From positions 3,369,501 to 3,433,500 of the forward strand of contig CP126202.1 of assembly GCA_030272155.1 (NCBI GenBank): DNA of 64,000 bases, written 5' to 3'. The DNA comes from Tetradesmus obliquus. Taxonomy: Eukaryota; Chlorophyta; Chlorophyceae; Sphaeropleales; Scenedesmaceae. Positions 2,496 to 57,400 of this stretch are shown here, piece by piece. The notes beneath the pieces are model-generated. The model saw only the letters and a list, made by a program, of their open reading frames with translations. It made no database searches and was not told where the DNA came from. How positions within the stretch are numbered: position 1 is the first letter of the stretch; the number at the start of each line of letters is the position of its first letter. A program made the translations under genes and the position numbers.

Positions 2496-5400
2496 CACTC
2501 ACAAAGTGAAATTGTAGCAGAGGGTGCGCCTGGCGGGCTAGGGGCGCATGTTTGTCAAAACACACGCACGCGTCCTGCTGATCACAGCAAGAGAACAGCT
2601 GCAACATTCCGCACTTATGATGCCATGGCTACGTGTTACATCAACAGCAACAGGCACAGGCACTGCACTTGCAGAAATGTGATCAGGTTGCAGCTGATGC
2701 TGCCGGAGTGACATGTGCCTGCGCCAACACCCCAGCAAGCCCTGTCCAGCATAACAAGAGCATTCACTAGCTGCATGTGCACAGCTGGTGTGACACTGGC
2801 ACATCACATCTGGGTGTCATATACGCTGATGTGGCGCACTGTTACACCGTCTGCTGCGCACAAAAGTAACAAGTCCAGCCAGCCCTACATATACCCCCAT
2901 GATTCGCCCGCAGTCCTCATACTTTCCACAATTTATCAAGAGCAGGTGAAAGACCCTGCATTGGCCTGTCCATGGCCTCACATATCAAACCTAACATTTT
3001 TTAGCACTCCTTGTCTTGCAAGCAGCCTCACTGCAGACTCTTTTGCAGCGGATGCATCATGCGGTCCATGTATCATGCGTAACCACTGCAGCAGCAGCAG
3101 CACTCACCGTGTCCAGCCACCACATGACCTTGCATATGCCCTCTTTCTGCCTGCCTCAAATGCAAACCAATGATATGCACTCGTCGTGCTTTCAGGCATA
3201 CAATAGACTTGGCTTGTCCTGCAGGCAGCCGCAGTGCATGGCTGTCTGGCAGGACTTGCAGCACGTTCTAAGTCAGCCACATCAACTGCGCTCACCGCAT
3301 CCAGCCACCACAGGTCCTTGCATATGCCCTCCTTCTGCCTGCCTCCCAGCAGCAGCATGCGGCCGTCAGGCAGCGGCGTCATGCTGTGGCACATGCGCTC
3401 GCAGGGCCCTGACCCCGCCTCGTCAGCAGCAGGCAGCTGCACCCACCTGCAGCAGCAGCAGCAGCAGCAGCAGCAGCACGCACAACAACTGTGTTGCCCC
3501 ACAGTGCGTCCCGTATCAGACGGCTGCTTAGCAACGCACTGTTTGCCCCACTATCCTGCAGCTGCTCAGTACTCAGCGCCTTTGCCTCTACGCTCTGCCT
3601 GCCACACCCCCGACACCCACAGCCCAACGGAGGTGCATGGCAATGGAATAAGGGATGCTGGTGTTTAGCATCCTCCCTGCTACAGGGCGCACATGATGCT
3701 GCTCGTGTCCAGCAGCCACGCATCTCTGCTGTGCAGAGAGCATACGATACCAGTGAGCAAACATAAAAAAAACTTACATCAAGCTGCTCATGTCCAGCAG
3801 CCACGCCTCCTTGCTCTGCACGTAGTTGCGGTTCAGCGACAGGAACGAGCTCAGGTCCAGGCAGCCGCCAAACAGCACAACGCGCTGTTGCTGCTGCCCG
3901 TCTGCTGCTGCTGCTGCTACGCCGCCGCTGCTGCTTGCCCTTGGCGTGGCGGCCAGACTGCCTGATGTATCTTGGTGTGGCGCTGCTTCTGGGGTGCTGC
4001 CCGCAGCCACCGCTGCTGCTGCTGATGGTAGTGGTTCCTCAGCACCGACACCGGTGCTGCTGCTGCCTGCTTCGCTGGTTGCTGTGCCAGGCGCTGCTGC
4101 TGGTAACGACGCTGCAGGAAGTTGCAAAGTATTGTGGAGTGAGGTCAGCACGTTTCAGCATGTAAGCATGGTGCGCTGGTGCAAGTGTCTCTTGTCCCAG
4201 CATGAAAGATGACTAGTCAACAGCAGCACGCAGCAACTTGAAGCCTACACACAGGACAGCCATAGCCAGCACAAAGCGCAGACACCAGCAGCACCATAGA
4301 CATCCCACACCGCACACATACCTACTGCCAGGGTGTGTCCAAAGCGTGGCGCGGGGCTTGCTTTGACTTTGACCTGCGTCCAGCGTGCTGTAGCCCCCTG
4401 CTGCCACCCCCGCAGCACCCACAGGTCATCGAGGGGGCCGCTGTCCCGCTCCCCACCAAACAGCACCACCTGCGATCCAAGCTGCAGGCACAAACAAGAA
4501 ATCTGAAGGATCAGTTATCAATGATAAAAGGTGAAGCAAAAGCACAACACCCACAGGTCATCTAATGGGCCGCTGTCCCGCTCCCCACCAAACAGGACCA
4601 CCTGAGAGCCAAGCTGCAAAACCACAGCACACGCAAAGTGAAGGGCACGACAGATAAGTGAAAAGTTGCTTGTGGGTTGAAGAGTGTGGAGCGGGGCTCA
4701 GCATCTGCAGCTGCGTCACCAGACACGCGGGACGCATACAATCTGGCTGCCATGCAAAGTCGCGAGCTACAGTTGCCACCGTGAGGGCAGACGTGCACCA
4801 AGAGGGCCGGGGCGTCCTGCAAAGCTGCAGGGCGGGTATGATATATCAAGCTCCACCCACCTACCTTAACCATGCCATGCATCTTGCGGGGTGCTGGCAG
4901 TGGCCCCTCAGGCTTCAGCTGCTGCCAGCAGCACCTGCAGCAGCACAGCACAGCGGCAACCAAGCTCATGTTATGCACCTGGCGGGCAAGCATAGTGTAC
5001 TTGAACACTGCTGGTGTTTGCGCAAAGGAGCTGTGCTGATCTACATTCCATGACATGGTGTTGCTTGCTCTGATGCTTTGATGTGCTTCACCACCTATAC
5101 AGCAGTAGTATCACCGCCAAGCAGTGCGTGTCTGCATGTGTCCAACAGCCGGTCCTGCAGGCACGTGCCCTGCCTCAAACCACTCACAAGAAGCAGCATG
5201 TCTGCAGGTCGCTGCAAATTGCAGACATGCAGTCAGAATTTTGCACAGCTGTCCACATCAAACAGCCAGCAGTCCTGCAGCGACCTTCCCACCTCGAGGT
5301 GCACCCAAGCAGCACAGTGTCCACAGCCCTCTGCACATTGCTCACTGCTGCTTTTCAACAGGCCTTCTCACCTCTCAACGTCAAACAGCCAGCAGTCCTG

Positions 5401-6581
5401 CAGCGACTTCCCAGCTTCACTGCGGCCGCCAAACAGCAGCAGCGTTGACTCGTCCAGCAGCAGCAGTGAGGCCATGTCCCTACCCAGGGGGCTGGGCCCT
5501 ACAGGGTCAACAGGCAGCTTGGCCCACTGCCAGTCCTCCTGCAAGCAGCGCGACACAGAAGAAGCCTTGGCAACAAAGGATGTGGTGTTTTGTTTGCCAG
5601 CCGCTTTGGAGCAGTAACAAGGCCAGGCAGAGGCAGGCTGGTGCAATGTGCACATGCGCTGCAGAGGCTACAGCCATCAAAGCTGATACCCTGCATCATA
5701 CAGGCATGATGCCTGCGCTGTTGCCGCAACAGAGCAAGCGCTCCACTGCTGTACAGCGCCAGCGGCACAAGCAGCTCTGCAGCTGCAGCCACACACCAGT
5801 ATCCAGCATGCAAGCACAGACGGCACTGCCGCTGAGTTGTTCTGCTGTAGTTTGACCAAAACTTGTGTTGACCAAAGGTTGACCGACCACCTGTTTGACC
5901 AGCAAAGTCACGCACCGTGTCCAGCTGCCACACATCGTTGAAGAACGTGCGGCGTTTCCTGTTGTGCTCTGCATCAAACGTCAGGATGTGCCCTCCAAAC
6001 AGCAGCAGCCGCTGCCCAAGTGCAACAGCACAGTGGAAAGCACGTGCCCCTGGGTTGGGGCCGGGCAGGATGTCTGGTACTGACCAAGTGCCATTGTCAA
6101 CCTGGGTCAGAGACAGCGGGAAGTGTGGCACAGAACACAGTGCATGCTAGAAGGCATGGGGGCATGCGGCTGTGCTGTGAGACCTACAGCTTGACAAAAA
6201 ACAGGGCCGTGGAGGACGACTCTGCATCACATGATGACAGTTCTGCACATGACGCCACTCTGGGCACGCTGCTGCAACAGCTGGGCTGTGTGTATCATGC
6301 GAGCTGACACCTCCACTTCCTGTGAAGCTGCTGCTGCTATGCTCTTGCAGTCAGATAACACTGGTGAAGAATACTGCAACAGCAGCACCCACCTGCAGCA
6401 CCACAACGTCTCCTAGTGCAGTTTGTGCACTCTCTCCAGCAGCAGAGCCCACCCCACCATACACCACAACTAGATCCGAGCCCCAGTTCGCCTTGGCATT
6501 TACACAGACAGCTGAGTGGCCGAAACGAGGCAGAGACAGCCCGGGATCGGCCAGGGAGGTATAGCAGTGACTCCACTTCAT
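78..6581 (-). CDS. Kelch-repeat protein with C-terminal coiled tail (12 exons, about 883 aa)
   Basis: Exons (gene order): 6581-6393, 6101-5916, 5538-5372, 4934-4865, 4481-4322, 4111-3778, 3446-3296, 2450-2377, 2220-1582, 1268-800, 533-466, 222-78. Phase closes at every junction. Residues 1-420 hold Kelch blades: PRFGHSAV then VVVYGG, ARAFHCAVALG then LLLFGG, LLLFGGRSEAG, VVLFGGERDSG then PRFGHTLAV, VVLFGG, and MLLLGG, most followed by a DxWxLD-type strand. The start Met directly precedes the first blade, so no targeting peptide is expected. Residues 420-810 are Q/A/S/P-rich low complexity with short conserved helices (near LMDAGLGSGELAKLI). The last 70 residues look helical and may form a coiled coil. 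This suggests a cytosolic protein-interaction scaffold; the partner is unknown. Several introns carry copies of exon edges, listed separately. Confidence 0.8.
3105..5300 (-). repeat. Truncated exon-edge copies inside Kelch introns
   Basis: Five places show a partial copy of a neighbouring exon. 3108-3165 copies the end of the 3446-3296 exon (it still reads WWLD before a donor). About 3695-3725 copies the end of the 4111-3778 exon (AWLLDTSS). 4549-4615 copies the start of the 4481-4322 exon, preceded by its own TTTGCAG. About 4960-4990 weakly copies part of the 4934-4865 exon. 5262-5300 and a more decayed piece near 5130-5160 copy the end of the 5538-5372 exon (QDCWLFDV). Copies of exon ends lie downstream of the exon in gene order and most copies of exon starts lie upstream, as expected for tandem duplication across a splice site. 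Confidence 0.75.
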
Positions 6582-9536: not shown

Positions 9537-9740
9537 GTGCTGCTGTTGCTGGTCATGACAGTGTCGGGGTTGAGTTACAGCTGCGATGATTGGTGCTGTG
9601 TGTGGCAGCTGCGGCTGCTGGGGATGCGGAAAGTTGGAGGCAGTTGAGCAGATTATCAACAGCTCTGCTGCACCTGTTTTGGAGCATCCCAATCGGATTG
9701 TACATTGACGGATGGCTGCAGGTCGTGTTTGCTGCCATGG

Positions 9741-13400: not shown

Positions 13401-16400
13401 CAGCAGGCAAGCCTGCTTGAGCCTGTGCTCTTCGGTGCCTGATGCAAGAAGGATTTGAACAAACCTGGTAAGAGTCAATCGTTAGACTTATTCCTACTCG
13501 CACTGTCTGTATGTAGGGCGGTTGGCGACTATGTTTCGTCCAGGTCAGCGCTGGGGGAGCTGTTTGCGCAGCGCATCTGCAGCTTGGGCTGGAGCATCAG
13601 CACCGCAGCAGCAGCAGCAGTCGACAGCAGTGAGGTTGCCCTGCTGATTCCTCCAAGCGTGGTGAAGCTGCGTGGCCTTTTGTGGATACTTGCAGCAGTC
13701 ACACCCCCAGCAACTCAGCAGGAGTGTAATGTAGCCTCAGTGCGTGATTCACTGTACGTCACATTCAAGCTGCTGGCAGCTCGGCAGAAGCACGATGATG
13801 ACGTACGGCAATTGGCGAATGTATATGCTGCATACAAGTGAGTTCAGTGCATGTGTAGCCGCACACCTGTGCATCTTCCCAATGTCTTTCCAATCACATC
13901 ATGTTCACTGCTGAGGTACAGGTTGTGTGGACTGAATGGCAAAGGCTGGAGTGTGCTTGAGCAAGCCTACACATCAAACACCGTGATGGCGTGAATCTGG
14001 TTGTTGGAACAAAGTCCTTGGAATAAAAACCCAATTGGGCTGCGAAACGCCTCCAGCTTTGAACCTGGTGGTGCTGTGTACATGTACGTTTATGTTGCCA
14101 GGCAGCTTGGGCCATCTATGACTGCCATTTAACAGTATGATAACACACCAACTTTTGAACTGGGCATTGCTGATCATGTGCACTGCAGTGTGCTCGGGCG
14201 CTACACATCAGAATCCGCAGTGTTCGCCTGCAGCATGCTGCGCTCGGTGCTGCAGCAGCAGCCCTTCCAGCAGCAGCCACCCGAGGCGCAGGCCCTGCTG
14301 CAGGCATGCATGAAGCAGCTCATGCGGCAAGCTAGCATATGGGTCCTGGTGCCTGAAGTGCTGGACATGTTTTGCCGAGTTCCCCTGCTGCATGCTGCTG
14401 ACTATGAGCATGCGCTGCAGCTGGCTCGTGCATCAGGTGCGGTGATGCTGAACATGCATCTTGAGTGGACGCACCCTGTCAGCAGCTTGCGGCTCGCATG
14501 CCTACACCATATCATTGATATGCAATCAGGGTGTGTGACTTAACCGGTGGGCATGACAGACTGAATTGCCGATATGGCGCAGGCAGCAGCAGCAGCAGCA
14601 GCATAGAACTGGTGTGTGCAATCTATACCTGACGCTACATGTGTGCATGAGCCAAGATACAGTTCTGCTCCCATCCTCAGCACCTTGTGCTGGTTGCTGC
14701 CGCTGCTTCAGGCTTACACAAGGCCATCTCCACTGTGTGGCAGGCAGCAGTGTCTGCTGCAACCGAACCTGGCCTGTGCAGCCTGCCTGCCTTTGGTGGG
14801 AGGAGGCCAGATGAGGCATGGCTGGCGCAGCAGCTGCAGCAGTTGATGACAGCAGCAGCAGGCACTTCAATTCTGGCACAGCACTGGAACATCCTTGAGC
14901 TGATACTCGAGCCTGCACTGCAAGCAGCAGAAACTGCGCTTGCAAGGCAGCTTGGACCAAGCTCTGCAGCAGAACATGCTGCAAGTTCAGCTGCAGCAGT
15001 GACGCCACCTGGTGTTCAACTGCTGCACAGTGGCTGTGCTGCTCTGCAAGCAGCCTACAGCATTGACAAACGGCCGGTGCAGCAGCTGCAGCCTATGGTG
15101 GCCCGAGTGCTGGCACTGCTGCTGCAGCACCCTGAGGTGTCCACACCTCCAGCACTGCAGGGGTTGCTCTGCGCTGCAATAGGCGCTGCTGCAGGAATGA
15201 GAGACGCCAGCTTGTTCCAGACAGTGACCCAGCATGCGCAGCAGCTGCAGCTGAGCCGAGCAGACGTTAAAGCTGTGACGTCAGCTGCAATGACGGCAGC
15301 AGCCGCAGAGGCAGCAATATACCCAAGCAGCAGCAGCATTGACGCTCTGCGGCAGCTTTGGCAGGTTGTGACAGCAGCAGCAAGTGACGAGGAAACACAG
15401 ACTCACCAGCCTCTGACGGCTGAAGCAGTCACAGCTGTCACAGCTGCCATGGCTGCAGATGCAGCTGTGTCGGACCGGCTGATGAGCTTTGCAGCAATCC
15501 CACTGCCACTGCTTCAGCAGCTGCTTCAAGCAGCAGTGGACGGCAAGCAGGCCCCAGCTGTGCAGCAGCTGCTGCAGCATGCAGAGCAGCACCAGCTGCT
15601 GCAGCAGCTGCCACCCAACCTGCTGATAGCAGCACTAGGGCAGGGCCTAGGCAGTGCAACAGCAGGTAGTTCTGGCAGCGGTGCTTTGGCGCAGCAGGCT
15701 GTTGCAGTGCTGCTGCAGCAGGGACAGGCACCAGATGCAGCTGCAGCAGCTGCACTGCTGCCTGGCACAGCAGCAGACGACCAGCAGTGGCAGCAGCTGC
15801 TGGCATGGCTGCAGCAGCAGTGCAGCACTGCACAGGCAGCTGCAGCACACAGCCTGTTGTGTAACTTGCTGCTTGCCAGTGCCTGCAGGCGGTCAGCTGA
15901 TCAGTCATGGCAGTTGTACCAGCTGCTGCAGAACTTGCAAGAAACTAGCAGCTGTGCAGCAGCACAGCAAGGACTGCCAGCAGCAGTGTGCAGCGCATTG
16001 ATTGAGCAGCAGGCAGCAGCGGGGACAGCAGCAGGCAGCAGCAGGGTGCTGCAGCTGTGGCAAGCACACGCAACACAGCAACAAGCTCCTGTTGGGAATG
16101 GTGAGAAGCTCAGCACAGCTGCGCTGACAGCGATTGTGTCAGCTCTCGTGGCAACAGAGGAACATGCTGCAGCGCTGCAGCTGGTGCAGCAGCAGGACCC
16201 AGCACTGCTGCCACACCTTGTCAGTTTGTGGCAGCAGCAGCCGCCTGAAGCAGATGTTTTAGCTCAGGCGCTGCAGCAGCTGTGTGCGTCCAGCAGCAGC
16301 TTGGGTGGTGCTGCAGCTGCTGGCGTTGCGGAGCAGCTACTGACTCTGCTGGAGCAGCAGCAGGTGCCACTGCAGCAAGCAGTGCAGGGGCAGGCTGCAG

Positions 16401-19400
16401 GTCAGCTGGTGCAGCTGCTGAGTGAGCATGGCAGGCTGGCAGCTGCTGTAAAGCTGACCCGCTGCATCCTGAGTGTTGTGAAAACTGGTGGCTTGGAGAT
16501 CGATGCTGCAGCTGCTGCAGTGGCAGCAGTGGTTGAGGCAGCGGCAGCAGACCAGAGCCCAGATGTGCTGGCAGCAGTTGTGCAGCTACTGTCAGAGCAG
16601 CCAGCAGGTGCAGAGCAGCAGCAGGCAGTGCTGCTGGCTGCACTGGACAGGCTGCTTCTCAGCAAACAGCCTGCAGCAGTGGCACTGCTGCTGCATGTGC
16701 TGCAGACAAGCGATGGAGAGCAGCAGCCGCTGCCAGCGCTGCTGAAAGCAGAGCAGCTTGAGCAGCTGGTTGGCCTCTACTGCAATGCAGCCAGCAGTGC
16801 GGCTCACAGTGCAGGCAGCAGTGCGATTGTGTCAGCTCTCGTGGCAACAGAGGAACATGCTGCAGCGCTGCAGCTGGTGCAGCAGCAGGACCCAGCACTA
16901 CTGCCACACCTTGTCAGTTTGTGGCAGCAGCAGCCGCCTGAAGCAGATGTTTTAGCTCAGGCGCTGCAGCAGCTGTGTGCGTCCAGCAGCAGCTTGGGTG
17001 GTGCTGCAGCTGCTGGCGTTGCGGAGCAGCTACTGACTCTGCTGGAGCAGCAGCAGGTGCCACTGCAGCAAGCAGTGCAGGGGCAGGCTGCAGGTCAGCT
17101 GGTGCAGCTGCTGAGTGAGCATGGCAGGCTGGCAGCTGCTGTAAAGCTGACCCGCTGCATCCTGAGTGTTGTGAAAACTGGTGGCTTGGAGATCGATGCT
17201 GCAGCTGCTGCAGTGGCAGCAGTGGTTGAGGCAGCGGCAGCAGACCAGAGCCCAGATGTGCTGGCAGCAGATGTGCAGCTACTGTCAGAGCAGCCAGCAG
17301 GTGCAGAGCAGCAGCAGGCAGTGCTGCTGGCTGCACTGGACAGGCTGCTTCTCAGCAAACAGCCTGCAGCAGTGGCACTGCTGCTGCATGTGCTGCAGAC
17401 AAGCGATGGAGAGCAGCAGCCGCTGCCAGCGCTGCTGAAAGCAGAGCAGCTTGAGCAGCTGGTTGGCCTCTACTGCAATGCAGCCAGCAGTGCGGCTCAC
17501 AGTGCAGGCGGCAGTGCGATTGTGTCAGCTCTCGTGGCAACAGAGGAACATGCTACAGCGCTGCAGCTGGTGCAGCAGCAGGACCCAGCACTGCTGCCAC
17601 ACCTTGTCAGTTTGTGGCAGCAGCAGCCGCCTGAAGCAGATGTTTTAGCTCAGGCGCTGCAGCAGCTGTGTGCGTCCAGCAGCAGCTTGGGTGGTGCTGC
17701 AGCTGCTGGCGTTGCGGAGCAGCTACTGACTCTGCTGGAGCAGCAGCAGGTGCCACTGCAGCAAGCAGTGCAGGGGCAGGCTGCAGGTCAGCTGGTGCAG
17801 CTGCTGAGTGAGCATGGCAGGCTGGCAGCTGCTGTAAAGCTGACCCGCTGCATCCTGAGTGTTGTGAAAACTGGTGGCTTGGAGATCGATGCTGCAGCTG
17901 CTGCAGTGGCAGCAGTGGTTGAGGCAGCGGCAGCAGACCAGAGCCCAGATGTGCTGGCAGCAGTTGTGCAGCTACTGTCAGAGCAGCCAGCAGGTGCAGA
18001 GCAGCAGCAGGCAGTGCTGCTGGCTGCACTGGACAGGCTGCTTCTCAGCAAACAGCCTGCAGCAGTGGCACTGCTGCTGCATGTGCTGCAGACAAGCGAT
18101 GGAGAGCAGCAGCCGCTGCCAGCGCTGCTGAAAGCAGAGCAGCTTGAGCAGCTGGTTGGCCTCTACTGCAATGCAGCCAGCAGTGCGGCTCACAGTGCAG
18201 GCGGCAGTGCGATGCTGGACCTGCCGAGTCCACTGCAGCTAGCTCATCAGTGTGTGGAATGCAACAGCAGCAGTGGACCCGGCGCTGTGACACCGCAAGC
18301 AGTTGCTGTGTCTCTGCTCAATGCCCTTGCAAAGCAGCATCCTGAGCTGCAGCCCTCAGCAGCAGCTGCAGCACTGGGCCTGGTGTCAGCTGATGACCTG
18401 GCAGCAGCAGGAGCTGACATCAGCAGCAGCAGCAGCGACAGCACAGCAGCAGTTTTAGACACACCGCAGACGAGCCGGGTCATTGCTGAGCTGTGCTACA
18501 TGCAGCTGCTGCAGCACGACAACCTGGACAGGCAGTCTCTGCAGGATGCTGTCAGCGTGTGGGTGGACAAGCTGTTACATGAGGCGGCAGCAGCAGCACT
18601 GTTCAGCACCTGGTTCTGGAGCCAACCTGCAGCAGCGCTGCCACCAGAGTTTGATCCAGTGGCTCAGCTTCCAGCTGCATCTGCGGTTGGTGTGCTGGGG
18701 CTGGCGCTGTACCAAGCTGCTCGTGTAGGCAAGCCCAGCCTAGGCAGCCTGCTGCTGGACCTGGCCCTGGTGGCAGCAGCTGCTGCAGGAGATTGGGACG
18801 AAGGTGGGCGTGGTGCTGCCTGCCATGTGACCCAACCGTTGGTGCCTTTTCATCGTCTGCTGTGTCGTGCTGTCCTGGGCTGCCACGGCTGCTGTGGTTG
18901 AGCTGGCATAGTCTGATCAAAGCCTGCTGGTTGCTGCACTGGGTGACCACCTGAGAATCATCACCAACAGTACATGCATGGGGGCAGCATCCCGATCTTT
19001 GCGAACGGGAAAAGCTGCTGGCATGTGGTGATGGCTTACCCAGGCCGATTGCCCTGCTGCATGTGTGCAGGTCTTGCTGTTGTCCACACAGCAGAGCGTG
19101 TTGTTGCAGCTGGTGGCAGCAGCAGCAGCAGCAGCAGCAGTAAGAAGCAGCCAGGCAAGTCCCAGCAGCGGCAGCAGCAGGCCTGGCTGCCCAACTTGCC
19201 AGCTGCACGTGCTGCACTGCCAGCTGCACGTGCTGCACTGCCGGCTGTGCTGGTGCACAGCAAGGGAGTTGAGAAGACAGCACAGCTGCTGCTGCGGGAG
19301 TTTGAAGAGTGGCAGGCACAGCAGCCGGCCGCAGCCACAGCAGCAGCAGCTGGGCGCAAGCAGCAGAAAGGACCTAGGCAAGCTTCAGCGGCAGCAGCAG

Positions 19401-26284: not shown

Positions 26285-26325
26285 TCCGCTTCAGCGGCTG
26301 GTGCTGTTCATGTACAGCATCACCG
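26285..26325 (-). repeat. Copy of the end of the lipase CDS in its 3' flank
   Basis: The last coding bases of the lipase gene (26440-26470, containing GCTGTTCATGTACAGCATCA) reappear about 150 bases further downstream. This matches the exon-edge duplications seen in introns. Confidence 0.6.
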
Positions 26326-26437
26326 CAACCAGCTTTCACAACCGCTTGCTGCTGCTGCAACATCCCCAGCGCCTGCCGCCCTCACCCCGCTGCTCCAACA
26401 CAGCAACTGCCGGAGGCAGCACACATATACAACCACT

Positions 26438-26809
26438 TCAGCGCCGGCTGCTGTTCATGTACAGCATCATCTTGCCCACAGGGTTGAGAATGTGCAGCCG
26501 CTGGTACCCAGCAACAGCAGCAGCGCCCTTGGGCCCCTCGCTGCTGCGCAGCCAGCCCTTCAGCACCTCAGGCACCAGGCTGCTGTGCTGCAGCGCTGCA
26601 ACATCCAGGTACTGCACTGCCTTGCTGCCGCTGGCCGCAACAGCCTGCAGGGGGCTCAGAAGCGGAGACACGGCCTGCACTGCGGCCTCTGCGGCCGCCT
26701 GCTGGTGGTACACGTTGCGCACGGCGTCCAGGGGCAGGCCCAGCTGCGAGAGGATGCCGCGGTGCAGCAGGTCCTCCAGCATGCCGTCCATGTCCTGCAA
26801 GAGCGAAAA

Positions 26810-33300: not shown

Positions 33301-34340
33301 AGTGTTTGTGGCAGGGAACGTGTCGTGGCTTGTTCACATTGAGCGATCTTCTTGCTGAACTTCGTGCATCGCTGCATTGCAGATGCGACAAGTCTCTGTC
33401 TCTGTGGTGTTGTTCAATGTCGCATGCAGGCGCAGCTGATGCTGTACAAAAATGATCCAGACAAGATAGGGGCGAAGGCAACAGCAGTGGCTGCCACGCT
33501 CACGGGCGGCGGCCTGACAGTGTCGCCTGTGATGTTCTGGAAGGACATCAGCCACAGCTGTGCTGAGCTGTCAAAAGTGGCGCGCATGCTGCTGTTCATC
33601 CCTCCTGCCAGCGCCACCAGCGAGCGCGTCTTCAGCGCTGTGGGCCGTGTGTGGGACTGCAGCCGCAGCCGCATGACGAGCACACGCGTGCGCAAGCTGC
33701 TGTTCATTTACTTCAACAGCAAGGCCCTCAGCCGCGATGGTGCAGTGCGCGATGCAGAGGACTTCGCAAAGTACCAGGAGTGGCTGGACAGCATCATAGA
33801 AGACGAGGAGCAGCAGCAGCAGCAGCAGCAGCAGGGAGAGGGGGAGGAGCAGCAGCAGGGGTAGCGCAGCATGCTAGCTGGATCATGACACAAGATGAGC
33901 AGCAGCAGAGTGGCACTGAGCTGGGAATGTGGCTTTGTTTTGCATATGTTCATGCTTGCTTGTACTAACCGGTGATGTGTACAGTTATTGTTGGCATAAG
34001 TTGATGATGATGATGATGATGATGAGTTGGTAGGAGCGCCCTCCTGCCCCCCACGTGGCAGCAAGCTGCAGGGAGCGCCTTGCAGTTCACTGCAGTAGGT
34101 TGCTTTGCATGGGTTCCAGGGGCCTCTGCTATGCTGTAACCCCTAAAAGATATATTGTAATGCTAATCGACTATTTCTGATATATCCTTGCGTGAGCCAA
34201 CGCGTTCCTCGCTCTCCAAAAGCCCATTTCGCTGTCATTTCACTTCGCGCAGTGGAGCCCAGATCGATTGAAATGTGAAATGAAATTTCAGTGAAATTAC
34301 TGAAACAATTAAAAGTGAAATCTGTAACGGCACACCCCTG
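30315..34340 (+). mobile_element. Complete hAT-superfamily DNA transposon (about 4.03 kb)
   Basis: The ends are terminal inverted repeats: the left end begins CAGGGGTGTTCC and the right end, read inward on the minus strand, begins CAGGGGTGTGCC; similarity continues for about 23 bases with a few mismatches. Both flanks carry the same 8-bp direct repeat GCCAGAAC (30307-30314 and 34341-34348), the target-site duplication length typical of hAT. Subterminal regions are rich in short GTGAAA/GAAATG words at both ends, probable transposase-binding repeats. The element encodes one apparently intact spliced transposase. The perfect duplication and intact reading frame suggest a young, possibly autonomous copy. 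Confidence 0.95.
30415..33864 (+). CDS. hAT transposase with BED zinc finger (8 exons, 738 aa)
   Basis: Exons 30415-30752, 30851-31232, 31395-31550, 31736-32097, 32269-32455, 32648-32892, 33093-33204, 33430-33864; phase closes at all junctions. N-terminal BED-type finger: HCTHC followed by KLHLLKC. A (Gly-Ser)n linker lies after it. The DDE-type core shows SSDAWSS (first Asp) and FVTDWGSNMMKAG (second Asp). The C-terminal hAT dimerisation domain reads LLFIPPASATSERVFSAVGR. The tail is a Glu/Gln run. It should cut and paste the surrounding element in the nucleus. The first intron begins with a run of CAG triplets. No frameshift or premature stop is seen. TGTAA lies at 34135. Confidence 0.93.
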
Positions 34341-36147: not shown

Positions 36148-39100
36148 TGTTGTCATTGCAATTCAAGCAGCAGCTGCAGCAGCTATGTGGGAGTGTCGCT
36201 GGCGGCAGTTATGCTGCCAACTGTTACCTGCAGATCAGGAGCACCTTGAGGTCTGAAGCTTGCAATGTTGGTATAGGCAGTGGGACAACAGCAGCAACTA
36301 GCTGGTGCCTGCGGTGCAAGCATACTCATATGCAGACATCCCAATACGAAACACACGCCCAGCAAGCAATGCATCGGCAAAAGGTGTGCCTCAAGAAGAC
36401 TGAATATATTTGTCCTCACTGTATGTGTATGCTGCCATCTGTGACTGAATATATGTGTCCTCACTGTATGTGTATGCTGCCATCTGTGACTGAATATATG
36501 TGTCCTCACTGTATGTGTATGCTGCCATCTGTGGTGCAGGTCAGCGCCAGCGTTGACGCTGCCACACAGTTATTCCTAGCAGCGCTGCCACCCCCTGTGA
36601 AGGACGCAGCAGTGGCAGTTGGCTCTGGCGTTGCTGCTGCAGCGCACACTGCTGTGGAGCACCCTCGTGCTGCTGCTGTGCTGACTGCTGCTGTGGCAGT
36701 GCCTGCAGCCATCAGTTACTACAAGGGGCGCTATGCGGGCTATGCAGGGGAGCTGTCACCTGGCCAGGTGGGCAGTGCTGTTAGGCCCTGATCCGTGCTG
36801 CATTGCATTGCTGTGTACTGTTGCGGACCACAAACGCATGTATGTGCAAGCCGCTTGCCTTGTATGTGTGCATGCCGATCATAGGTTATAATGCCCTCCG
36901 CTGCAGCTCCATCTGTGTACAGACCTGCACAGCAGTTGTGCAACTCGCTTGCATTTGAATGCAGACCTTGCATATCTGCAATGTATGCTCTGCCCTGCAA
37001 GTGTCGGTGCTGCTGGGGAAGAGAGCAGTGTGTTCCTGGTGGACATCCGGCTTGATGAGGCGCGCATGTGTTGTAACCTTATCGCTCAGTTATGTCATGT
37101 TATGTTTGCTCCCGCAGGTGTCTGTGCTGCTGGGCGAGGAGGCCAACGTGTTCCTGGTGGATGTCCGGCCTGATGAGGCGCGTGAGGAGGAGGGCCTGCC
37201 ACAGCTCAAGCTGCAGGCACGCTTCAGGGTGGCAGCCTTCCCGCTGCTGCAGGTGAGGCGGCTGATGGTGCACCAAAACACTGTTATCAAGTGTTACAGC
37301 TAGGTTCTCAACATGCTGTGGCGGCAGCATGAGCACACATATGCTGCGTCTGAAGTGCCTGTGCACGCTGCGTCGCGCAGCTGCGTATCAGTGGTGTGCT
37401 GGTTATCTGGAGGGTGATCTGTGCTCCCACGTAGCGGCTTGCAATTGGTGAACATTACTGCTGTCATGTTCCCAATCTTGGGGATCATTGTCAACTGCTG
37501 TCTGTATCATATGCCTGCGGGAAAAAATTGACTGTGCTGCCTCGGCGCATTGCGCCCGAGGCGGCCAACCCCTGGCGCTTTCTTGCACCCCCACAACAGC
37601 TGCTTTAGCATGGTCCGTGGGCTGACAATGAGTCATGTGCTTGCGCTGCCTTTGCAGAAGAATGATGTGCTGCCGCCGCGCATCGCGCGCGAGGCGGCCA
37701 AAGCAGATGAGCTGCGGCTGCTGCCTTGTGTACGCTTTGTATGCCCTTGCAACCTTGACGGTCCCGTCTTGCTGCTGTTTGCTGCTGCCCAGCTGCTGCC
37801 CCTTGCGGGGCCGCGTTGCATGCGAGGCAGCCGCCGCATTGTGTTGCTCCTAACCGCTGCTGCCATGCGCATCTACGATTTTGCTTGCAACGATTGTCAT
37901 GTGCCTGCCTGGCTGCCCTTTTACGCCTTTTACGCCTGCAGAAGAATGATGTGCTGCCGCCGCGCATTGCGCGCGAGGCGGCCAACGCAGAGGAGCTGCG
38001 GCTGCTCATCAACGCAGCTTACATCGCGGGCCTGCCGCCATGCCAGGTAAGGGGGCGCTGAATCAGCTTCTTATCAAGACATTGAGAACATTTGTTTGTA
38101 GCTCACAGGAGCTGCGGCTGCTGATCAACGCAGCTTACATTGCGGGCCTGCCACCATGCCAGGTAAGGGCAGCCTCACCAAGATTGTGGTGATGGACAGC
38201 ACCGGCAGCGACAAGGCACGTGACCTGGTGCGAACATGACTGTGGTGATGATTCAAGTGCCTTCGCACCCACATCTTTCATGCTGTGCAGTATTTTATGT
38301 TCGGTTTTGCAGGGAAGCCTCACCAAGATTGTGGTCATGGACAGCACCGGCAGCGACAAGGCGCGCGACCTGGCGCGCACATGATTGTGGTGATGATTCA
38401 AGTGCCTTTGCACTTGCATATTCCTTGCTGTGCACTGCTTTGCGTTGCTGTTTTGCAGGGGAGCCTGACCAAGATCATGGTGATGGACATCACCGGCAGC
38501 GACAAGGCGCAACCCAGCGCCCATCTTTACATTCCCCTTGCCTCGCCTGACCTTTATGTCCTCCGTTTTTCGCCTCACAGGGCAGCCTGACCAAAATCAT
38601 GGTGATGGACAGCACCGGCAGCGACAAGGCGCGTGACCCTTCCGTTTGCAGGGAAACCTGACCAAGATTGTGGTGATGAACAGCACCTGCAGCAACAAAG
38701 CGCGCGACTTGGCACTCGCACATGATTGTGGTGATGAATCATTTGCCTTCGCACGCACATCTCCCTTGCTGTGCACTGGTTTACTTTCCATTTGCAGGGA
38801 AGCCTCACCAAGATTGTGGTGATGGGCAGCACCGGCAGCGACAAGGCACATTGCACCATTCACTGATCATCATTTTTGTGCTTTGCTTGTAATTCTTTTC
38901 ACCCCTACAGGGCAGCCTGACCAAGATTGTGGTGATGGACAGCACGGGCAGCGACAAGGCGCGTGACCTGGCGCGCGAACATGATTGTGGTGATGAATCG
39001 CTGCCTTCGCACCCACATCTTCCTTGCTCTGCACTGTTTCATAATTCTCTTTGCAGGGAAGCCTGACCAAGATTGTGGTGATGGACAGCACCGGCAGCAA

Positions 39101-40404
39101 CAAGGCGCACCCCAGCACCCATCTTTACATTCCCCTTGCCCTGCTTGAGCTTTTTGTCCTCCATTTTTCTCCTCACAGGGCAGCCTGACCAAGATGTGGT
39201 GATGGACAGCACCGGCAGCGACAAGGCGCAACCCAGCACCCATCTTTACATTCCCCTTGCCTCGCCTGACCTTTATGTCCTCCGTTTTTCTCCTCACAGG
39301 GCAGCCTGACCAAGATCGTGGTCATGGACAGCACCGGCAGCGACAAGGCGCGTAACCTGGCGGGTGCCCTGGTGTCGTGACTCACCTGACCTTGTTGTCA
39401 TTTTGTTAATTCTGACCTGCCTTTGCAGGGCAGCCTGACCAAGATTGTGGTGATGGACAGCACTGGCAGCGACAAGGCGCGTGACCTGGCGCGTGCCCTG
39501 GTGTCACTGGGCTACCAGCTGAGCTATGTGATGGAAGGGGGCTTTGCAGGATGGGCTGCTGCACAGCTGCCTGTGGTGGAGGATGCTTCGGAGTATGATG
39601 CGAGCACCGGCGCTGTGATTGGTGATGAGCTGGAGGTGATTGCAGGCAAGGCCAACGAGGTGGTCACTACAGTGGCACAGCCGCAGGTGCGAGTTATGTT
39701 ATTTCCTTGTTATTTTTAAGATGATTATCAAGCAGGGATGTGATTGGTGATGAGCTAGAGGTGACTGCGGGCAAGGCAAATGAGGTGGTCACCACAGTGG
39801 CGCAGCCGCAGGTGTGTGTTGTGCTATCTTGTTACTTCATCGTTCAGGTGAATATGTTGGGCTGTAAGATGGCAACAGGGCATGGGATGTCACTCGGCTA
39901 CGAGCTGAGATATGTCATGGAGTGGGGCTTTGCGGGCTGGGCTGCTGCACAGCTGCTGGGGATGCCTGCCTGGTGTCGTGCTGCTGACCCATGCTGCGCT
40001 CGACTACCACACCACACTCAAGTTATCCAACCACTTCACCACCCTGCATGTGTTGCTGCTGCACTGGATTCTGCAGGTGGGCCTGCCTCTGCTGGGTGGT
40101 GGCGCGCTGCTGACCTATGCTGCGCTCAACTACCACACCACGCTCAAATTTGTGGGCGTGCTGGGTGTCATGCTGACCATCGGCAACAAGCTGCTCAGCT
40201 ACGATAGCCCCAAGGACGCCTTTGACGACATCACAGGTGCGGCTGGTCAAACCTGGCCAAACATGGTCAAACATGGTCAAACAAGCTGCACCTGCTGCAG
40301 CTGGCGAGCATCTGCTTCAACCCTAGCATATCGCAGCTTACTGCAGCCAAGACGCATCCATGGCTGCTCTGGAGCCGTAGTATGCTTGCAGCAAACAGCC
40401 AAAA

Positions 40405-40440
<36 letters not shown>

Positions 40441-40710
40441 TTTGTGGCTGTTTGGGCAGGCACGCTGGGTGGTGTGGCTAAGACGGTCAGCTCCTTCAAG
40501 CCCCCCAGCCTACCCAAGGCCCCCAAGCTGCCAAGCATGCCTAGCATGCCAAAGTTGCCAGGCGGCAGCAGCAGCAGCAGCAGCGGAGCAGCAGCAGCAA
40601 CAGCAGCAGCAGCGGGAGTGCCGTCTGGCTTTGCCGGGCTGCGTGCTGCTGCCAGCAGCGGGGAGGATGAGAAGGAGGCAGAGGAGCAGGCGGCTGCAAG
40701 TGACGTGTAA
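34721..40710 (+). CDS. TROL-like thylakoid rhodanese protein (5' exon unresolved, at least 598 aa)
   Basis: Exons 34721-34858, 35186-35278, 35678-36105, 36540-36767, 37118-37252, 37942-38046, 39429-39686, 40077-40236, 40460-40710; phase closes throughout. The first exon, with the transit peptide, should lie near 34455-34640 but I could not fix it. Order: Ala/Ser/Thr-rich amphipathic region with many VxxA and TxxV repeats; membrane helix AAVLTAAVAVPAAISYYKG; rhodanese domain starting YAGELSPGQVSVLLGEEAN, with FLVDVRPDEAREEEGLP and IVVMDSTGSDKARDLA; second membrane segment LLGGGALLTYAALNYHTTL; LLSYDSPKDAFDDI; then a Pro/Lys/Ser tail. This layout and LLSYDSPKDA match plant TROL, which tethers ferredoxin-NADP reductase to thylakoids. 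The rhodanese catalytic Cys position is Asp, as in TROL. Confidence 0.8.
36401..36535 (+). repeat. 45-bp tandem repeat, three units, ending at a splice acceptor
   Basis: Units begin TGAATATAT at 36401, 36446 and 36491. The last unit runs into the acceptor GTGGTGCAG at 36531-36539, just before the TROL exon at 36540. The unit includes the end of the intron, so the array may have grown by duplication of the acceptor-proximal region. Confidence 0.9.
37002..38161 (+). repeat. Exon-edge copies around two TROL exons
   Basis: 37009-37070 copies the first ~60 bases of the exon at 37118 (reads FLVDIRLDEAR) but the acceptor has decayed to GCAAG. The exon at 37942 has an upstream copy at 37659-37723 with its own TTTGCAG (reads NDVLPPRIAREAAKADELRL) and a shorter one at about 37535-37570. 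Its 3' half plus donor is copied downstream at 38107-38161, ending GCCAGGTAAG like the true exon. Confidence 0.85.
38168..39428 (+). repeat. Ten decoy copies of the rhodanese exon start
   Basis: Copies of the first ~50-70 bases of the true exon (39429) start at about 38168, 38313, 38459, 38581, 38652, 38798, 38911, 39057, 39179 and 39300. Most follow a functional-looking acceptor (TTTGCAG or CTCACAG) and read SLTKIVVMDSTGSDKA or close variants. Spacing alternates mainly between about 146 and about 122 bases, so there are two unit types arranged as a higher-order array. Only the last copy continues into the full exon. Confidence 0.93.
39738..40030 (+). repeat. Copies of TROL exon parts in the intron 39687-40076
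   Basis: 39738-39812 repeats the 3' end of exon 39429-39686, with the donor-side CCGCAGGTG. About 39885-39960 repeats the middle of that exon (GYELRYVMEWGFAGWAAAQL). 39963-40025 repeats the start region of exon 40077-40236. One intron thus holds copies of both flanking exons. Confidence 0.85.
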
Positions 40711-46122: not shown

Positions 46123-46314
46123 GCGAGTGGCCTCTGCTGACAGCAACACCTTGGCATTAGTATCTTGCTAGCAGTGCAGTCGCGTGTGTGTCTCTGTGTG
46201 GTGTACAGCTAATGCTGCAAAACAGCTTGTTGCACATATTGCACATATTCAACAGCTCCCATGTTGCGTGCATCTTTTGAATGGTGAATGGCTGCAAATG
46301 TACGTTGCTTGCAG

Positions 46315-46614
46315 GGCAAGATCTGCCTGATGCAGCGCGGGGTCTTCCTGTATTCCAAGTAACGTGACAACATGTCACAACATGTTCTGTGTTGTGTGCT
46401 GCTCTGGCTTGCAGGTCAAGATATGCCTGATGCAGTGTGGGGTTCTTCCTGTAATTCAAGTACCGTTATAACATGTCACAACATGCTGGGTGCTGTCTGC
46501 TGCTCTGGCTTGCAGGTCAAGATCTGCCTGATGCAGCGTGGGGTTCCTCCTGTATTGCAAGTACCGTTGTAATGTCACAACATGTTATGTGCTGTCTGCT
46601 GCCCTGGCTTGCAG
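46315..46614 (+). repeat. Three decoy copies of the PA-domain exon start
   Basis: Copies start at 46315, 46415 and 46516, and the true exon at 46615, giving spacing of 100, 101 and 99 bases. Each copy has its acceptor GCTTGCAG and the first ~25 exon bases (K-I-C-L-M-Q-R/C-G), followed by a shared short tail ending CAAGTA. The unit joins the end of the intron to the start of the exon. Confidence 0.92.
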
Positions 46615-47558
46615 GGCAAGATCTGCCTGATGCAGCGCGGCGGCCCTTCCTATGCAGAAAAGATGGTCAACTGCATCAACGGCGGAGGCGTTGCTGCTGC
46701 CATCTACACACGGTGAGCTGCTGCCAGCAGCTGCGTCTGTTTAACAGATTGATTGAATGCAGTTGCCAGTGTGATCGTGTGGTGTGGGACTGCATGCTTG
46801 TCTCTGCTACTTTGTGTTGATAACAGTATATTACAGCATTGCAAACAGCATGCCGACCACATGCATCTGACAAGCATGTCACTGACATTGTTACATGACT
46901 GTTACATAACTGCTATGCCTGCAGTGATGACCAGCCTGTCTGTGCACGCTTGCTGGGTAATCTCGTGGATGTTGTGGTGAACGGCACACTCATTACAAGC
47001 CCACTCCCCAATGGTGCCTGGCCCATGGCAGTTGGCTTGAGCCGTCAGCAGGGCGAGGCACTGAAAGCAGCACTGCAGGCAGGCCAGCAGACCAACTTGA
47101 CTCTTACATCATCCGCCAAAACACCAACCATAGTGCCACTCCAATTCAGCGATTGGTATTCCAACGACTACAACAGCTTTTATGCTGCTTGTATGGCCAC
47201 TGGGGCGTTTGGTGCACTGTGGAGCGCGCACCCCGGCTGCTCACGGCAGCAGATCCTGGCTGCAGTCAGTGAGGCAGCCAAGCCCAAGCTCAATAGTGGC
47301 CTGCCTGACTGGGAGGTGAAGGCACGCTACGGCAAGGGCCTGCTGCAGGTGGGCGGATGCCAAACTTTTGACAACATGTCAAATTTGACATGCACTACTG
47401 TAAAGTAGTGTAGCCAAACTTTTGACAACATGTCAAAGTAGTGTACGTGGGGTGTTATGTTTCTGTGTGCCAACAGAAAGCATACAAGAGCTTGTTATGT
47501 AGTGCCTGGCATGGTTGCGAGAAGAGCCAGCAGTGCAGGTGACTGGTCAGCAAACCAG

Positions 47559-47559
<1 letters not shown>

Positions 47560-47619
<60 letters not shown>

Positions 47620-48899: not shown

Positions 48900-48904
48900 A
48901 GATT

Positions 48905-49130: not shown

Positions 49131-49300
49131 GGCTTGAGACAAACGTGTTGATAAAGCGACTGGACAGAGATTTGTGTGTTCCTTTTCATCGCCTTGCACA
49201 CATGCATTTGGTCGGTGGAGCATGTCTTTTGGACATGCATATTTATGTGGTTAGGACACGCATGACTACTTCAGCGTCTCATGTTTAGGTTGCAGACATT

Positions 49301-49777
49301 GCTGTGGATCTGACAGATCCGGGCTGTTTTTGCATTTGGTCAGCGGAGATTGTTTAAAAGAGTTGCATGACGACAAAATCACCGCAGGTTTGGGGTACAG
49401 GCGCTGCTGTGGATCTGATGAATCCGGGCTGTTTTTGCATTTTGTCAGTGGAGATTGTCTAAAAGAGTTGCACGACGACAAAACCATTGCAGGTTTGGGG
49501 TACAGGCGTTGCTGTGGATCTGACAGATCCGGGCTGTTTTTGCATTTGGTCAGTGGAGATTGTTTAAAAGAGTTGCACGACGCCAAAACCATTGCAGGTT
49601 TGGGATACAGGCGTTGCTGTGGATCTGACAGATCCGGGCTGTTATTGCATTTGGTCAGTGGAGGATTACTAAAGAAATGCATGAGTTCAACACCATCGCA
49701 GGTTTGGGGTACTGTTACAGCTACTAACAGATACAAGTCAGGCATGGCTGTGGATCTGACAGATCCGGGCTGTTTTC
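49301..49777. repeat. 105-bp satellite-like array with a palindrome in each unit
   Basis: Units begin GCTGTGGATCTGA at 49301, 49406, 49511 and 49616 (exactly 105 apart), with a last partial unit at 49747 after an interrupted unit. Most units contain the near-perfect palindrome GGATCTGACAGATCC. The unit length is a multiple of three, so both strands stay open for 150 or more codons. I treat these frames as by-products because no start, splice or family support exists. Confidence 0.92.
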
Positions 49778-50440: not shown

Positions 50441-50448
50441 TCAGTGAG

Positions 50449-53973: not shown

Positions 53974-54437
53974 CTACAACATCAATCGCTGCAGCTGCTG
54001 CTGCTGCTGCTGCTGCACAAAACCAAAGCTAGCCGGCGTCTTGCTGGGACTTACACTGCTGCTCACAAACCCACTGCCAGCTGGAGTGGTTGAAAAGGGT
54101 GTTGTAGTAACAACACATGCAGTGACATACTCCTCATCCTCACTCTGCTTGTGAGTGGCAGCCCAGTCTGCATTCAGCGCCCCTACCACATCTGCTGTCA
54201 ACTTCAGAGGAGGAACTACAGATGGCCTGCTGCCAGCACCATTGCTGCCTGCGGCACCACCCAGGCCCTGCTGCTGCAGCTCTGAAGATAGCTGCAACGA
54301 CCTTCGTGGCGCACCGCCAGCTGCTGCTGCTGCTGCCGCCGAGCCATCGCCTCCAAAGCTGCTGAATGCACTATTGATCCCCGGCTTCCCCCCATGCGCT
54401 GCTGCCATAGGTGACGAAGGCCCACTGGCGTACCCAC

Positions 54438-54480
<43 letters not shown>

Positions 54481-57400
54481 GCGGTGCTGCTCCCAGCTCT
54501 CTAGCAGCGGCGTCACGCGGCTCCTGGCAGCAGTCCAACTCTGCACCCAGCTGCTAGCTGCTGCAACTGCCGCCCGGCTGTTATGCCGCAGCCAGCCCCA
54601 TGGTGTGGCCAGCTCAGCTGCTAGGCGTGCTGCTTCCAGCTCCACTGGGTCCCTCCACGGCTCACCAGCCTCACACCTACGCAGCACAAATGCAGGCAGC
54701 CACACAAACACACACTGTAAGGCTGCAGGATGGCGCGTGGAAAAGTGGGTGTTGTGCTTGCAAGAGCTACACGGGGCCTTCCCAATTGTCACAGCTCTAC
54801 AAGAGTGTGGCGCAGCCGCAAGAGGCAACGCCGCAAAGTCCTCGACAAATGCCCGCTGATCACACAATCCATGACAGCTGCAAGATGTCAGCTAACTCCT
54901 CAAACACCCAGCTGACTACCCAGCCACATAAGCGCAACATCTGCTCTGCCAATGTGTCTGACACACAAGCGGCAGCAGCATACAGCAGCCCCACCTGGCC
55001 AGCCACGGGTGCTCCTGCAGCTGCTCCGCTGAGGGCCGCTGCCGCGGGTCCTTGGCCAGCGCCTGCTGCAGGAAGTCGACGCAGTCGGGCGGCAGGCTGC
55101 CTGGCGGCTGCTCAATATCAGCCCACAGCGCCAGGCCAGCAGAGTCGATTTTGGACTCGACCTGCCACAACAAGGCCGCGCACATAGCAGCTGTTATATG
55201 AGCAGCTGTCAATTATGATGTGGTTGTTACATCAAGCGGCAGGAAGAGTACAGGAGTGATGTCATGAAACCCAACACACAGAGGGTGTGTGGCAGGCAGC
55301 AGTGCCATATGTGCAAGGGCGCTGACAACCAGCAGCTGCTGCTGGCTCATCATGCTAGCTGGCACACAGTTTGTTGCTGTGTTTTGCTGGTGTGGTGGTG
55401 GTGTCCTCTCACCTCGAAGGGCATGCTGCCACACAGCAGCTCATGCACCATGCAGCCCACTTGCCAGATGTCCACCTTCTCATCGTAGTAGTCCCTGCAA
55501 CGTCATGTGGCAGTAGTGACAAGGATCAGCCAGCCACGCATGACATGACAACAAGCAGCACAGGAGATGCTGATGCCTTGCTGGATCCGCTACCAAGTGC
55601 ATCCGCCTGTGCCTTGATTGCTGTGTTGAGAGGTGTGCTGCGCTGGCAAATGCAACTTGCTAAGCGCTAGTTTCTCAAACACAGCTGTGCAATGCTGTCA
55701 TCACACATCAGCGCTGCCCCGCACATGCCCCCACCTGTGCTCCCACTCTGCCCTGCCAGCAGCTGCAGCAGCGTTCAAGCTTCGGCTGCTGCGCATCAGC
55801 TTACTCATGCTCCTGCCAGCTGGCTGCAGCGCCGCCGCATCACAGCCCTCATCCTGCAGCATCGGTATGCTTCTGCTGCCCTGCCGGCTCGGCTGCTGCC
55901 CGCCGCTGCTGCTGTTGCCGCCGCCACCGCTGCTACTGCGCGGCCGCGCTGCTGCCTGCTTGCTGCCCCTGCCGCCATCCCCAGAAGCCGGCTGCAGTGA
56001 CGCACCCAACTGCTGCTGCTGCTGCTGCTGACTTGGCTCGTCTTCTTCATCGGCCCCGGATTCGCTGCTGCTGTCATCTAACAGGCCCAGCGCCAGCTCA
56101 TGCTCATTGTGAGGCTTCACTGACAGCATCTCAGGAGCCATGTAATCCAGCAGCGCGGTGCGGCTCTTGGGCCTGTCGCTGAGCTGGTCAACTGCTAAAG
56201 TCAGGTGGCCCAGGCGTGCCACGTCATCAATGCCCATGTAGAGGTTCTCAGGCAGCACGCTCCTGCAAGCAGCAGCACCCGCAACATGGCTTTTTGATGA
56301 TCATCCAAAGCATAGCAGTGATCAGCAGCACCCAGCTACACCTAGTAACAATAGCGGTGACGTGGAGTGCCCCGTTTGTGTGGAGCATCCAGTGCTTTGA
56401 TGTCCAGCCAGCAGGCAGTAGAAGGCGACGGCTGAGCAGCAACAACAAACCTCTATGTCTCCAGCATGTTTTTGGCAAACAAGTAGGCAGCTAGGGCAAA
56501 GCAGCCCAAGCCGCCGCGGTTGACATTCAATTATGTAGCTATGCATCTTCCGTGGTCCTTCACATTCTGCTGTGCTGCAGCCGCACCTGTGGATGATGTA
56601 GTTGGCGTGCAGGTAGGCCAGCGCCTTGAGCAGCAACATCATGCAACACCATGCCTGTCCTGCTGTGCTGCAGCCGCACCTGTGGATGATGTTGTTGGCG
56701 TGCAGGTAGGCCAGAGCCTTGAGCAGCGGCTTCACCAGCGACACAGCCACGTGGCGCTCCGTGTACTTCTCCGGGTGGCTGATGCAGTCGTTGAAGATGT
56801 CGCCCTTGCCCACATACTCCTCCACTGCAGGACACGCAAGCCACAGCAGTAGCGCGATGGTGTTGACAAGAGCCTTATCATAAGACATGATCAAAGCACA
56901 GGCTGTTGATGCAGTCGTTGAAGATGTCGCCCTTGCCCACATACTCCTCCACTGCAGGACATGCAAGCCACAGCAGCACCATGGTGATGTTGAGACGTAT
57001 GTTACCAAAGACCTGATGTACACAGATACAAGCACAGGCTGCTGATGCAGTTATTGAAGATGTCAGTCTTGCCCGCGTACTCCTCCACTGCAGGACATGC
57101 AAGCCACAGCAGCAGCACAAAGGTGTTGACAAGAGCCTTATCGAAAATCTAATCCAAGCACAGGCTGCTGATGCAGTCATTGAACATGTCACTCTTGCGC
57201 ACGTACTCCTCCACTGCAGGACATGCAGTGCAACATATAGCAGTGATTTATGTTGCCTTCATCCTAGTCTAGAGACTGGTGGACACCAGTAGTGACACAG
57301 GTAGCGCTGAAGCACGCAGCCTGCAACATCCGCCGGCAGTCCCAGCGCAACAATGCAGCTGCCAAGTGACCAACGGAACTCAGCCATTGTCCATCCTCCT

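Follow-up and report, generated by a model that had tools for sequence, protein, structure and literature searches.

Introduction

The gain of introns by tandem genomic duplication is a model reportedly due to Rogers in 1989 and Hellsten in 2011, and internal gene duplications touching introns were said by Gao and Lynch, in 2009, to be common in eukaryotes. To our knowledge, neither junction polarity nor arrays of half-exons nor an allelic pattern at silent sites has been described for such internal duplications. Introners, in turn, are dispersed families of repeated intron sequence. Here we describe introns of the alga Tetradesmus obliquus that carry truncated copies of the edges of their own neighbouring exons, in a stretch of 64,000 nucleotides (GenBank assembly GCA_030272155.1, contig CP126202.1, positions 3,369,501 to 3,433,500; hereafter the window) and beyond it. 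In four of the five regions sampled, roughly one intron in four was found to have grown by such exon-edge copies.

In the potato RNA-dependent RNA polymerase (RdRp) gene, a new intron arose when a splice-junction segment was duplicated in tandem, and its splice signals come from the parental intron (PMC4974935, excerpt). The algal introns share with this kind of intron gain, as set out in the excerpt, a short direct tandem duplication, the reuse of splice signals and an unchanged protein; there, however, a new intron arises via a cryptic donor or AG|GT, whereas in the alga an existing intron grows and half-exons stay in it. Direct tandem segments were indeed found in the alga (units reported by Tandem Repeats Finder, TRF, and homology of the flanks); the AG|GT needed for a new intron was no commoner in the copies than in an unrelated control. 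The duplication of proto-splice sites with intron sliding in Drosophila likewise involves exonic duplication near splice motifs, but in the excerpted text (PMC2891723) it explains novel intron positions, while the algal introns grow at an unchanged position. Failed synthesis-dependent strand annealing (SDSA) with polymerase-theta end joining is predicted to leave a tandem copy of the repair-synthesised sequence, and in helq-1 mutants of C. elegans failed SDSA led to tandem duplications of ~100 bp to 10 kb. These worm duplications were POLQ-1-dependent and had a median of ~1 kb, and a preference for splice junctions is not mentioned in the excerpt (PMC8654963).

The preliminary description of the window held that no growth mode with this signature had been described. 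Among the matches listed in open-licence PubMed Central, judged by title or start of abstract, polarised exon-edge arrays were undescribed as a mode of intron growth; junction-spanning tandem duplication as such, on the other hand, has the potato gene as a precedent (PMC4974935, excerpt).

Materials and methods

Altogether 344 kb were sampled in five regions: the window (W, C12:3369501-3433500), 100 kb on C1, 100 kb on C2 (1,000,001-1,100,000), 40 kb on C5 and 40 kb on C9. Whole-genome searches covered 104.66 Mb in 17 contigs. Every modelled exon was aligned with the intron on either side of it, for a total of 312 introns (W 29, C1 97, C5 38, C9 40, C2 108). Window scoring used seven hand-curated gene models only, and outside the window the models came from a simple gene-finding hidden Markov model (HMM), trained for the analysis without RNA. 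Short predicted exons similar to a larger neighbour were reassigned to intron before the count, a step by which real duplicated exons could be hidden. The same introns in reverse complement, and one unrelated intron per exon side, served as controls. The edge of the Kelch exon at 3296, whose downstream intron was unmodelled, and two of three copies in the PA-domain gene were left out of the count, both being visible in self-BLAST and base-level alignment.

Codon analysis was carried out on 107 copies from 67 exon sides (101 edge-touching and six internal), that is, on all 109 matches of the count minus the two in C2. Bootstrap resampling was done by exon side because copies within one array are non-independent. 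Splice sites were tallied after correction of four rows in which the junction had been misplaced by a few bases.

Results

Polarised copies of exon edges

The alignment of exons with their flanking introns returned 109 exon-derived matches, 50 of them on the 5' edge and upstream of the exon, 51 on the 3' edge and downstream, and eight internal; none lay on the wrong side. No exon matches were obtained in the reverse-complemented introns, against 109 in the real orientation, or in the unrelated introns. The rule that copies of a 5' edge lie upstream and those of a 3' edge downstream, at first described as mostly constant, is thus stricter than had been stated, with 101 of 109 matches obeying it and none reversed, and across the five regions exon-like matches were neither equally often internal nor wrong-sided. 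Self-BLAST pairs in direct orientation were mostly at most 1.5 kb apart (W 52/53, C1 71/76, C2 30/45, C5 27/27, C9 30/32), and none of the four inverted pairs of the window was.

Exon sides bearing a copy numbered 14 in W, 31 in C1, 12 in C5, 10 in C9 and two in C2, the latter both with internal matches only. Accordingly, 55 of 204 introns outside C2 carried edge copies and none of the 108 modelled introns of C2 did. The pattern, first noticed in several genes of the window, is therefore found again in C1, C5 and C9 and is absent in C2; the observation is confirmed, and is broader than the window. It should be added that C2 has a higher GC content (60.5%), with GC at third codon positions of 0.74 vs 0.62-0.66 elsewhere. 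Small exons with copies of both edges, a single exon being flanked on each side, were seen at L015:5504-5641, L015:6613-6739 and L009:159-278.

Growth of introns by tandem duplication

Introns with edge copies had a median length of 499 bp vs 268 bp in those without (p 3e-9; n=55 and the rest of the 204, with C2 left out), the difference being significant in three regions (W, C1 and C9, each p<0.002) and weak in C5 (p 0.09). Once the added units were subtracted, the median of the copy-bearing introns fell to 258 bp, similar to that of copy-free introns, and the copies therefore account for the growth. In the regions without C2, added units made up 14,765 of 95,124 intron bases. The duplication unit (exon part plus gap) had a median of 132 bp (quartiles 113-154), and its length showed no preference for multiples of three (remainders 0/1/2 in 25, 19 and 23 cases).

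Since a unit that spans a junction must include intron sequence, the intron part should have been copied as well, and it was found so: the flank was duplicated at z>2 in 48 and at z>3 in 34 of 66 comparisons, those above 3 with 20% mismatches and many gaps. Similar duplications also occur off splice sites, namely at the stop-codon end of the lipase gene, as in-frame exon-internal repeats and as intergenic arrays. The divergence of the copies seems too great for breakpoints to be placed exactly. These introns have grown by tandem duplication across existing junctions, each event adding one unit to the intron and leaving a half-exon on the intron side of an intact exon. The earlier proposal that tandem duplication over a splice site explains the signature consequently holds for the polarity, the growth and the duplicated flank; it does not, however, imply a special or new mechanism. 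Polarity follows automatically from any tandem duplication in which a working exon edge is kept intact, and as the sign of a special mechanism it was rejected.

Duplication families were assigned to 61 junction and three intron-only cases, where a family whose span contains an edge copy was counted as junction, so that a nested intron-only repeat would escape, and where 17 other exon-overlapping, five exon-internal and nine intergenic or unmodelled families did not enter the comparison. Under uniform placement ~40% of the junction and intron events together should span a junction. From the intron part alone 14 of 67 junction duplications were detectable, and after correction for this detection rate ~19 intron-only families were expected vs the three observed (Poisson p 7e-6). 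Junctions are over-represented, even with faster decay of introns allowed for, to a strength that is limited by the gene models and the classing of families.

Silent-site divergence and the state of the copies

Copies differed from their exons at 175 of 3923 0-fold sites (4.5%) and at 232 of 1059 4-fold sites (21.9%), a ratio of 0.20 (bootstrap 0.16-0.26). For a copy dead since birth beside a fully constrained exon the expected ratio is ~0.5, and dead copies that were simulated and run through the detector used for the real ones kept 0.48-0.55, by which detection bias was rejected as the source of the silent excess. Hypermutability of silent sites, whether through CpG or through transitions, was also rejected, with 95 transitions and 137 transversions at 4-fold sites and an intron mismatch of 0.11-0.16 by base. 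Comparison of copies with one another gave the same pattern as that with exons (0-fold 159/3074, 0.052; 4-fold 161/751, 0.214). Three pairs from C2, with 12, 9 and 12 mismatches by codon position, were without silent excess. Across the 67 exon sides 4-fold divergence was homogeneous (chi-squared per degree of freedom 1.11) and 0-fold divergence over-dispersed (1.61), the two being uncorrelated (rho -0.03). One constant rate predicted 9.0 copies with zero silent difference, and 11 were seen.

The copies themselves bear marks of disuse. Gaps break the frame in 24 of 25 cases, and stop codons occupy five of 1964 codons. Amino-acid changes had a mean BLOSUM62 score of -0.36 vs -0.51 for random ones (p 0.11; intact copies -0.24, broken ones -0.58), and in the ARP6 gene on C5 (475 residues searched, 97% of them covered by a T. 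obliquus protein at 99% identity) several changes fall at positions that do not vary among 20 homologues. The distal ends of the copies have no partner splice site scoring above background (p 0.79 and 0.36), and a seamless alternative (AG|GT within 15 bp of the distal end) occurred in five of 107 copies vs 7% in the unrelated control. Frame breaks, random-like changes and absent partner sites mark the copies as half-exons with hardly any prospect of translation where they lie, which shows, if indirectly, that they are now untranslated and decaying as dead sequence. Broken copies, with a frameshift, a stop or a lost splice site (n=24), showed divergences of 0.232 at 4-fold and 0.066 at 0-fold sites, and intact ones (n=83) of 0.215 and 0.038. 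Aligned introns of the exon side and the copy side had 13-20% mismatch and many gaps. If the half-exons are dead now and nevertheless show a silent excess, the differences must have arisen while the sequence worked in another allele, and by elimination we infer that exon and copy derive from different alleles.

Decoy sites and splicing

The splice dinucleotide was kept in most copies (AG in 46/50 acceptor copies, GT in 44/51 donor copies; 11 lost). Intact donor decoys scored 6.5 vs 6.7 for the genuine sites, and 27 of 43 scored at least as high; acceptor decoys scored 5.7 vs 7.3, with 12 of 43 at least as high. Arrays of up to ten decoys had been proposed, and ten copies with an acceptor-like AG are indeed found at the exon starting at 39429. 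Donor-side copies precede acceptor-side ones in 10 of the 11 introns that have both, the exception being a C2 intron with internal matches. Owing to this donor-first order no acceptor-donor pseudo-exon is formed, an arrangement that exon definition would tolerate. The cell appears to ignore the decoys, and splicing to tolerate the arrays. For the short introns of Volvox and Chlamydomonas intron definition has been assumed, according to an excerpt of PMC4378016. Intron definition should favour the inner pair of sites, and for this reason the choice of the outer site among decoys matters.

Genes and exon-edge copies in the window

Self-BLAST and base-level alignment agree on exon-edge copies in the introns of all five genes initially named as Kelch, lipase, TROL, subtilase and kinase. 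As for their identities, Kelch, Lipase_3 and rhodanese-like matches were obtained, the kinase match is confined to one exon and below the Pfam cut-off, and the putative subtilase has a PA domain only. The outermost edge, attached to the full exon, had been taken for the genuine one, and homologous proteins with each edge present once support this: the predicted Kelch protein (P0001) of a second T. obliquus strain and the TROL-like proteins of two relatives (P0121, P0122). Those genes, though, may simply be without copies.

The Kelch exons, on the minus strand, merge into a single open frame of 414 residues with T. obliquus OEZ85_005266 as the best match, and four edges of the gene are copied. 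Frame, self-BLAST and alignment place the genuine 3' edge of exon 3296-3446 at a donor at 3295; the copy of this edge lies downstream at 3092-3157 with a donor-like site (self-BLAST, base-level alignment), its 50-bp exon part being 45/50 identical and its intron flank reaching z 4.0. Further copies are those of the 3' edge of exon 3778-4096 at 3691-3735 (self-BLAST), of the 5' (acceptor) edge of exon 4322-4481 at 4545-4618, where the differing codons are six synonymous and none nonsynonymous, and of the 3' edge of exon 5372-5538 at 5246-5294 (both self-BLAST and alignment). In the lipase gene, also on the minus strand, two edges and the stop-codon end are copied. Self-BLAST revealed a tandem copy of the latter (26433-26469) at 26286-26322, outside any splice site and with the stop seen in the sequence, as well as a copy of the 5' edge of exon 26443-26794 at 26891-26976 (exon part 56/57 identical); two 97-bp tandem units with the 3' edge of exon 27453-28556 occupy 27258-27452 (self-BLAST, alignment).

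The rhodanese/TROL-like gene, on the plus strand, has copied acceptor edges at 37118, 37942 and 39429 and copied donor edges at 38046 and 39686. The 5' edge of exon 37118-37252 is copied at 36994-37064, with its AG lost (self-BLAST, alignment). Exon 37942-38046 has two copies of its 5' edge at 37533-37722, the outer one without AG (self-BLAST), and one of its 3' edge, with donor, at 38104-38169 (self-BLAST, alignment). The ten-copy array, which repeats the 5' edge of exon 39429-39686 with an acceptor-like AG, spans 38166-39376 and contains two intron unit types (145 and 121 bp, TRF). Downstream of this exon there is a copy of its 3' edge with donor at 39739-39837 (self-BLAST, alignment), followed at 39888-40024 by a copy of an internal piece of the same exon (39888-39956) and one of the 5' part of exon 40077-40236 (39971-40024), which begins 20 bp inside the exon and was classed as internal. 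In the PA-domain gene one edge has three copies, ~101-bp units with the 5' edge of exon 46615-46713, at 46307-46614 on the plus strand. Two edges of kinase exon 56678-56826, on the minus strand, are copied, the 5' edge three times with acceptor (56907-57227) and the 3' edge once with donor (56567-56634); self-BLAST and alignment support these and the PA-domain units alike.

A comparison case free of junctions is the exon-internal in-frame tandem repeat at 16130-18213 (plus strand, self-BLAST), with three copies of 693 bp (231 codons); the copies are 99.6% identical, lie inside a long predicted exon and look like a recent protein repeat. An intergenic array of ~105-bp units in four to five copies lies at 49280-49776. 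The multi-exon gene at 30851-33860 (plus strand) matches DUF659 weakly, short of the Pfam cut-off, and the end of its protein resembles that of a hAT-type transposase. Homologues of the Kelch (3296-6581) and TROL-like (36540-40700) genes, P0008 (gene5010) and P0122 (gene5013), apparently belong to one relative, and their near-consecutive gene numbers hint at conserved gene order. A scan of the window against Rfam gave no match.

Discussion

In our opinion the data as a whole are best explained by junction-spanning duplications whose copies come from other alleles, likely via abortive repair between homologues, although we would place this explanation somewhat short of an even chance. A broken end would copy the other homologue, with synthesis running out of the conserved exon and into intron sequence that has diverged; re-annealing would then fail because the homology is lacking in the intron, the ends would be joined and the copied segment would end up duplicated, with one copy per allele. 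The engine would be a failed SDSA combined with end joining, that is, abortive repair between diverged homologues. POLQ_helical profile matches were found at two loci, one of them above the cut-off. More tentatively still, introns may grow by such repair accidents, in which case junctions would be hot spots of duplication and every array a fossil record of alleles.

Several points weigh against this explanation. It would require an allelic silent divergence of ~0.13-0.17 (4-fold minus twice 0-fold), and between strains only protein differences were seen. The copies of an array are as divergent from one another as they are from the exon, so that two parental haplotypes are insufficient, and a two-haplotype hybrid was rejected as the sole source. 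The ratios of C1 (0.17, 0.12-0.24), C5 (0.23, 0.11-0.37) and C9 (0.29, 0.17-0.48) each exclude 0.5 but depend on HMM gene models, and in the window the ratio of 0.21 (0.14-0.54) becomes 0.39 (0.20-0.78) without exon 39429, a range that still allows dead copies. Furthermore, 4-fold divergence is looser on the acceptor side (chi-squared per degree of freedom 1.36), its homogeneity fits a single age equally well, and private changes in arrays (60/2206 vs 28/554) give a ratio of 0.54, under the 1.0 expected for dead copies. Five of 15 residue differences of the ARP6 copies occur in some homologue, and an allelic match to other strains was not found, an outcome in keeping with death-time mutation. 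Finally, the worm duplications, at a median of ~1 kb, are larger than the algal units (PMC8654963, excerpt).

Its closest competitor, which we consider unlikely but worth retaining, is that the copies were identical at birth and that ordinary recombination in a very diverse population later re-paired them with exons of other alleles. Sex and high diversity would suffice to produce the same codon pattern without a special repair route. Re-pairing alone, however, leaves the shortage of intron-only duplications unexplained, and variable coalescence should have over-dispersed the silent divergence, which was not seen, with modest power (simulated variable ages reached only 1.5-1.7).

Rather less likely is ordinary tandem duplication by replication slippage or sister-chromatid exchange, randomly placed, with selection sparing only the events that span a junction or lie within an intron, and followed by neutral decay; polarity is then automatic. 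In its favour, the sampled DNA does hold tandem units, intergenic arrays, exon-internal repeats kept in frame and the stop-end copy; a junction share of ~40% is expected, and the window agrees with this reading once exon 39429 is left out. Against it stand the silent excess relative to simulated dead copies, the three intron-only families where ~19 were expected, and copies without silent differences hardly commoner than a constant rate predicts (11 vs 9.0). Faster mutation of silent sites does not rescue it, as aligned introns diverge by 0.13-0.20, like silent sites.

That the copies are in use, with coding selection acting on them as alternative exon edges or cassettes, seems improbable. It would agree with 0-fold changes five times rarer per site than silent ones, with mostly intact decoy sites and with amino-acid changes somewhat milder in intact than in broken copies; but distal partner sites and seamless alternatives are at background level, gaps break the frame, unit length shows no preference for multiples of three, and the proteins of relatives lack the repeat. 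Cassette, mutually exclusive or seamless alternative exons were rejected on the distal splice scores and the frame-breaking gaps. An assembly artefact or an introner or transposon family can practically be dismissed, given that the copies are diverged, match the adjacent exon, are never on the wrong side and have no counterpart in the controls, and that one unit of the TROL array, searched genome-wide, matched only its own array (other units lay outside that search). Introners share with the algal copies the repeated intron sequence, but the latter match their own neighbouring exon, and related copies dispersed in unrelated genes were not found (no exon matches in unrelated introns, pairs mostly at most 1.5 kb apart).

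Lengthening of existing introns without transposons is little documented, and in this alga the process is recognisable base by base. Moreover, the 344 kb sampled hold about a hundred natural tests of a spliceosome choosing the outer site among near-identical decoys. If the copies are indeed fossil alleles, each array would sample lost genetic diversity.

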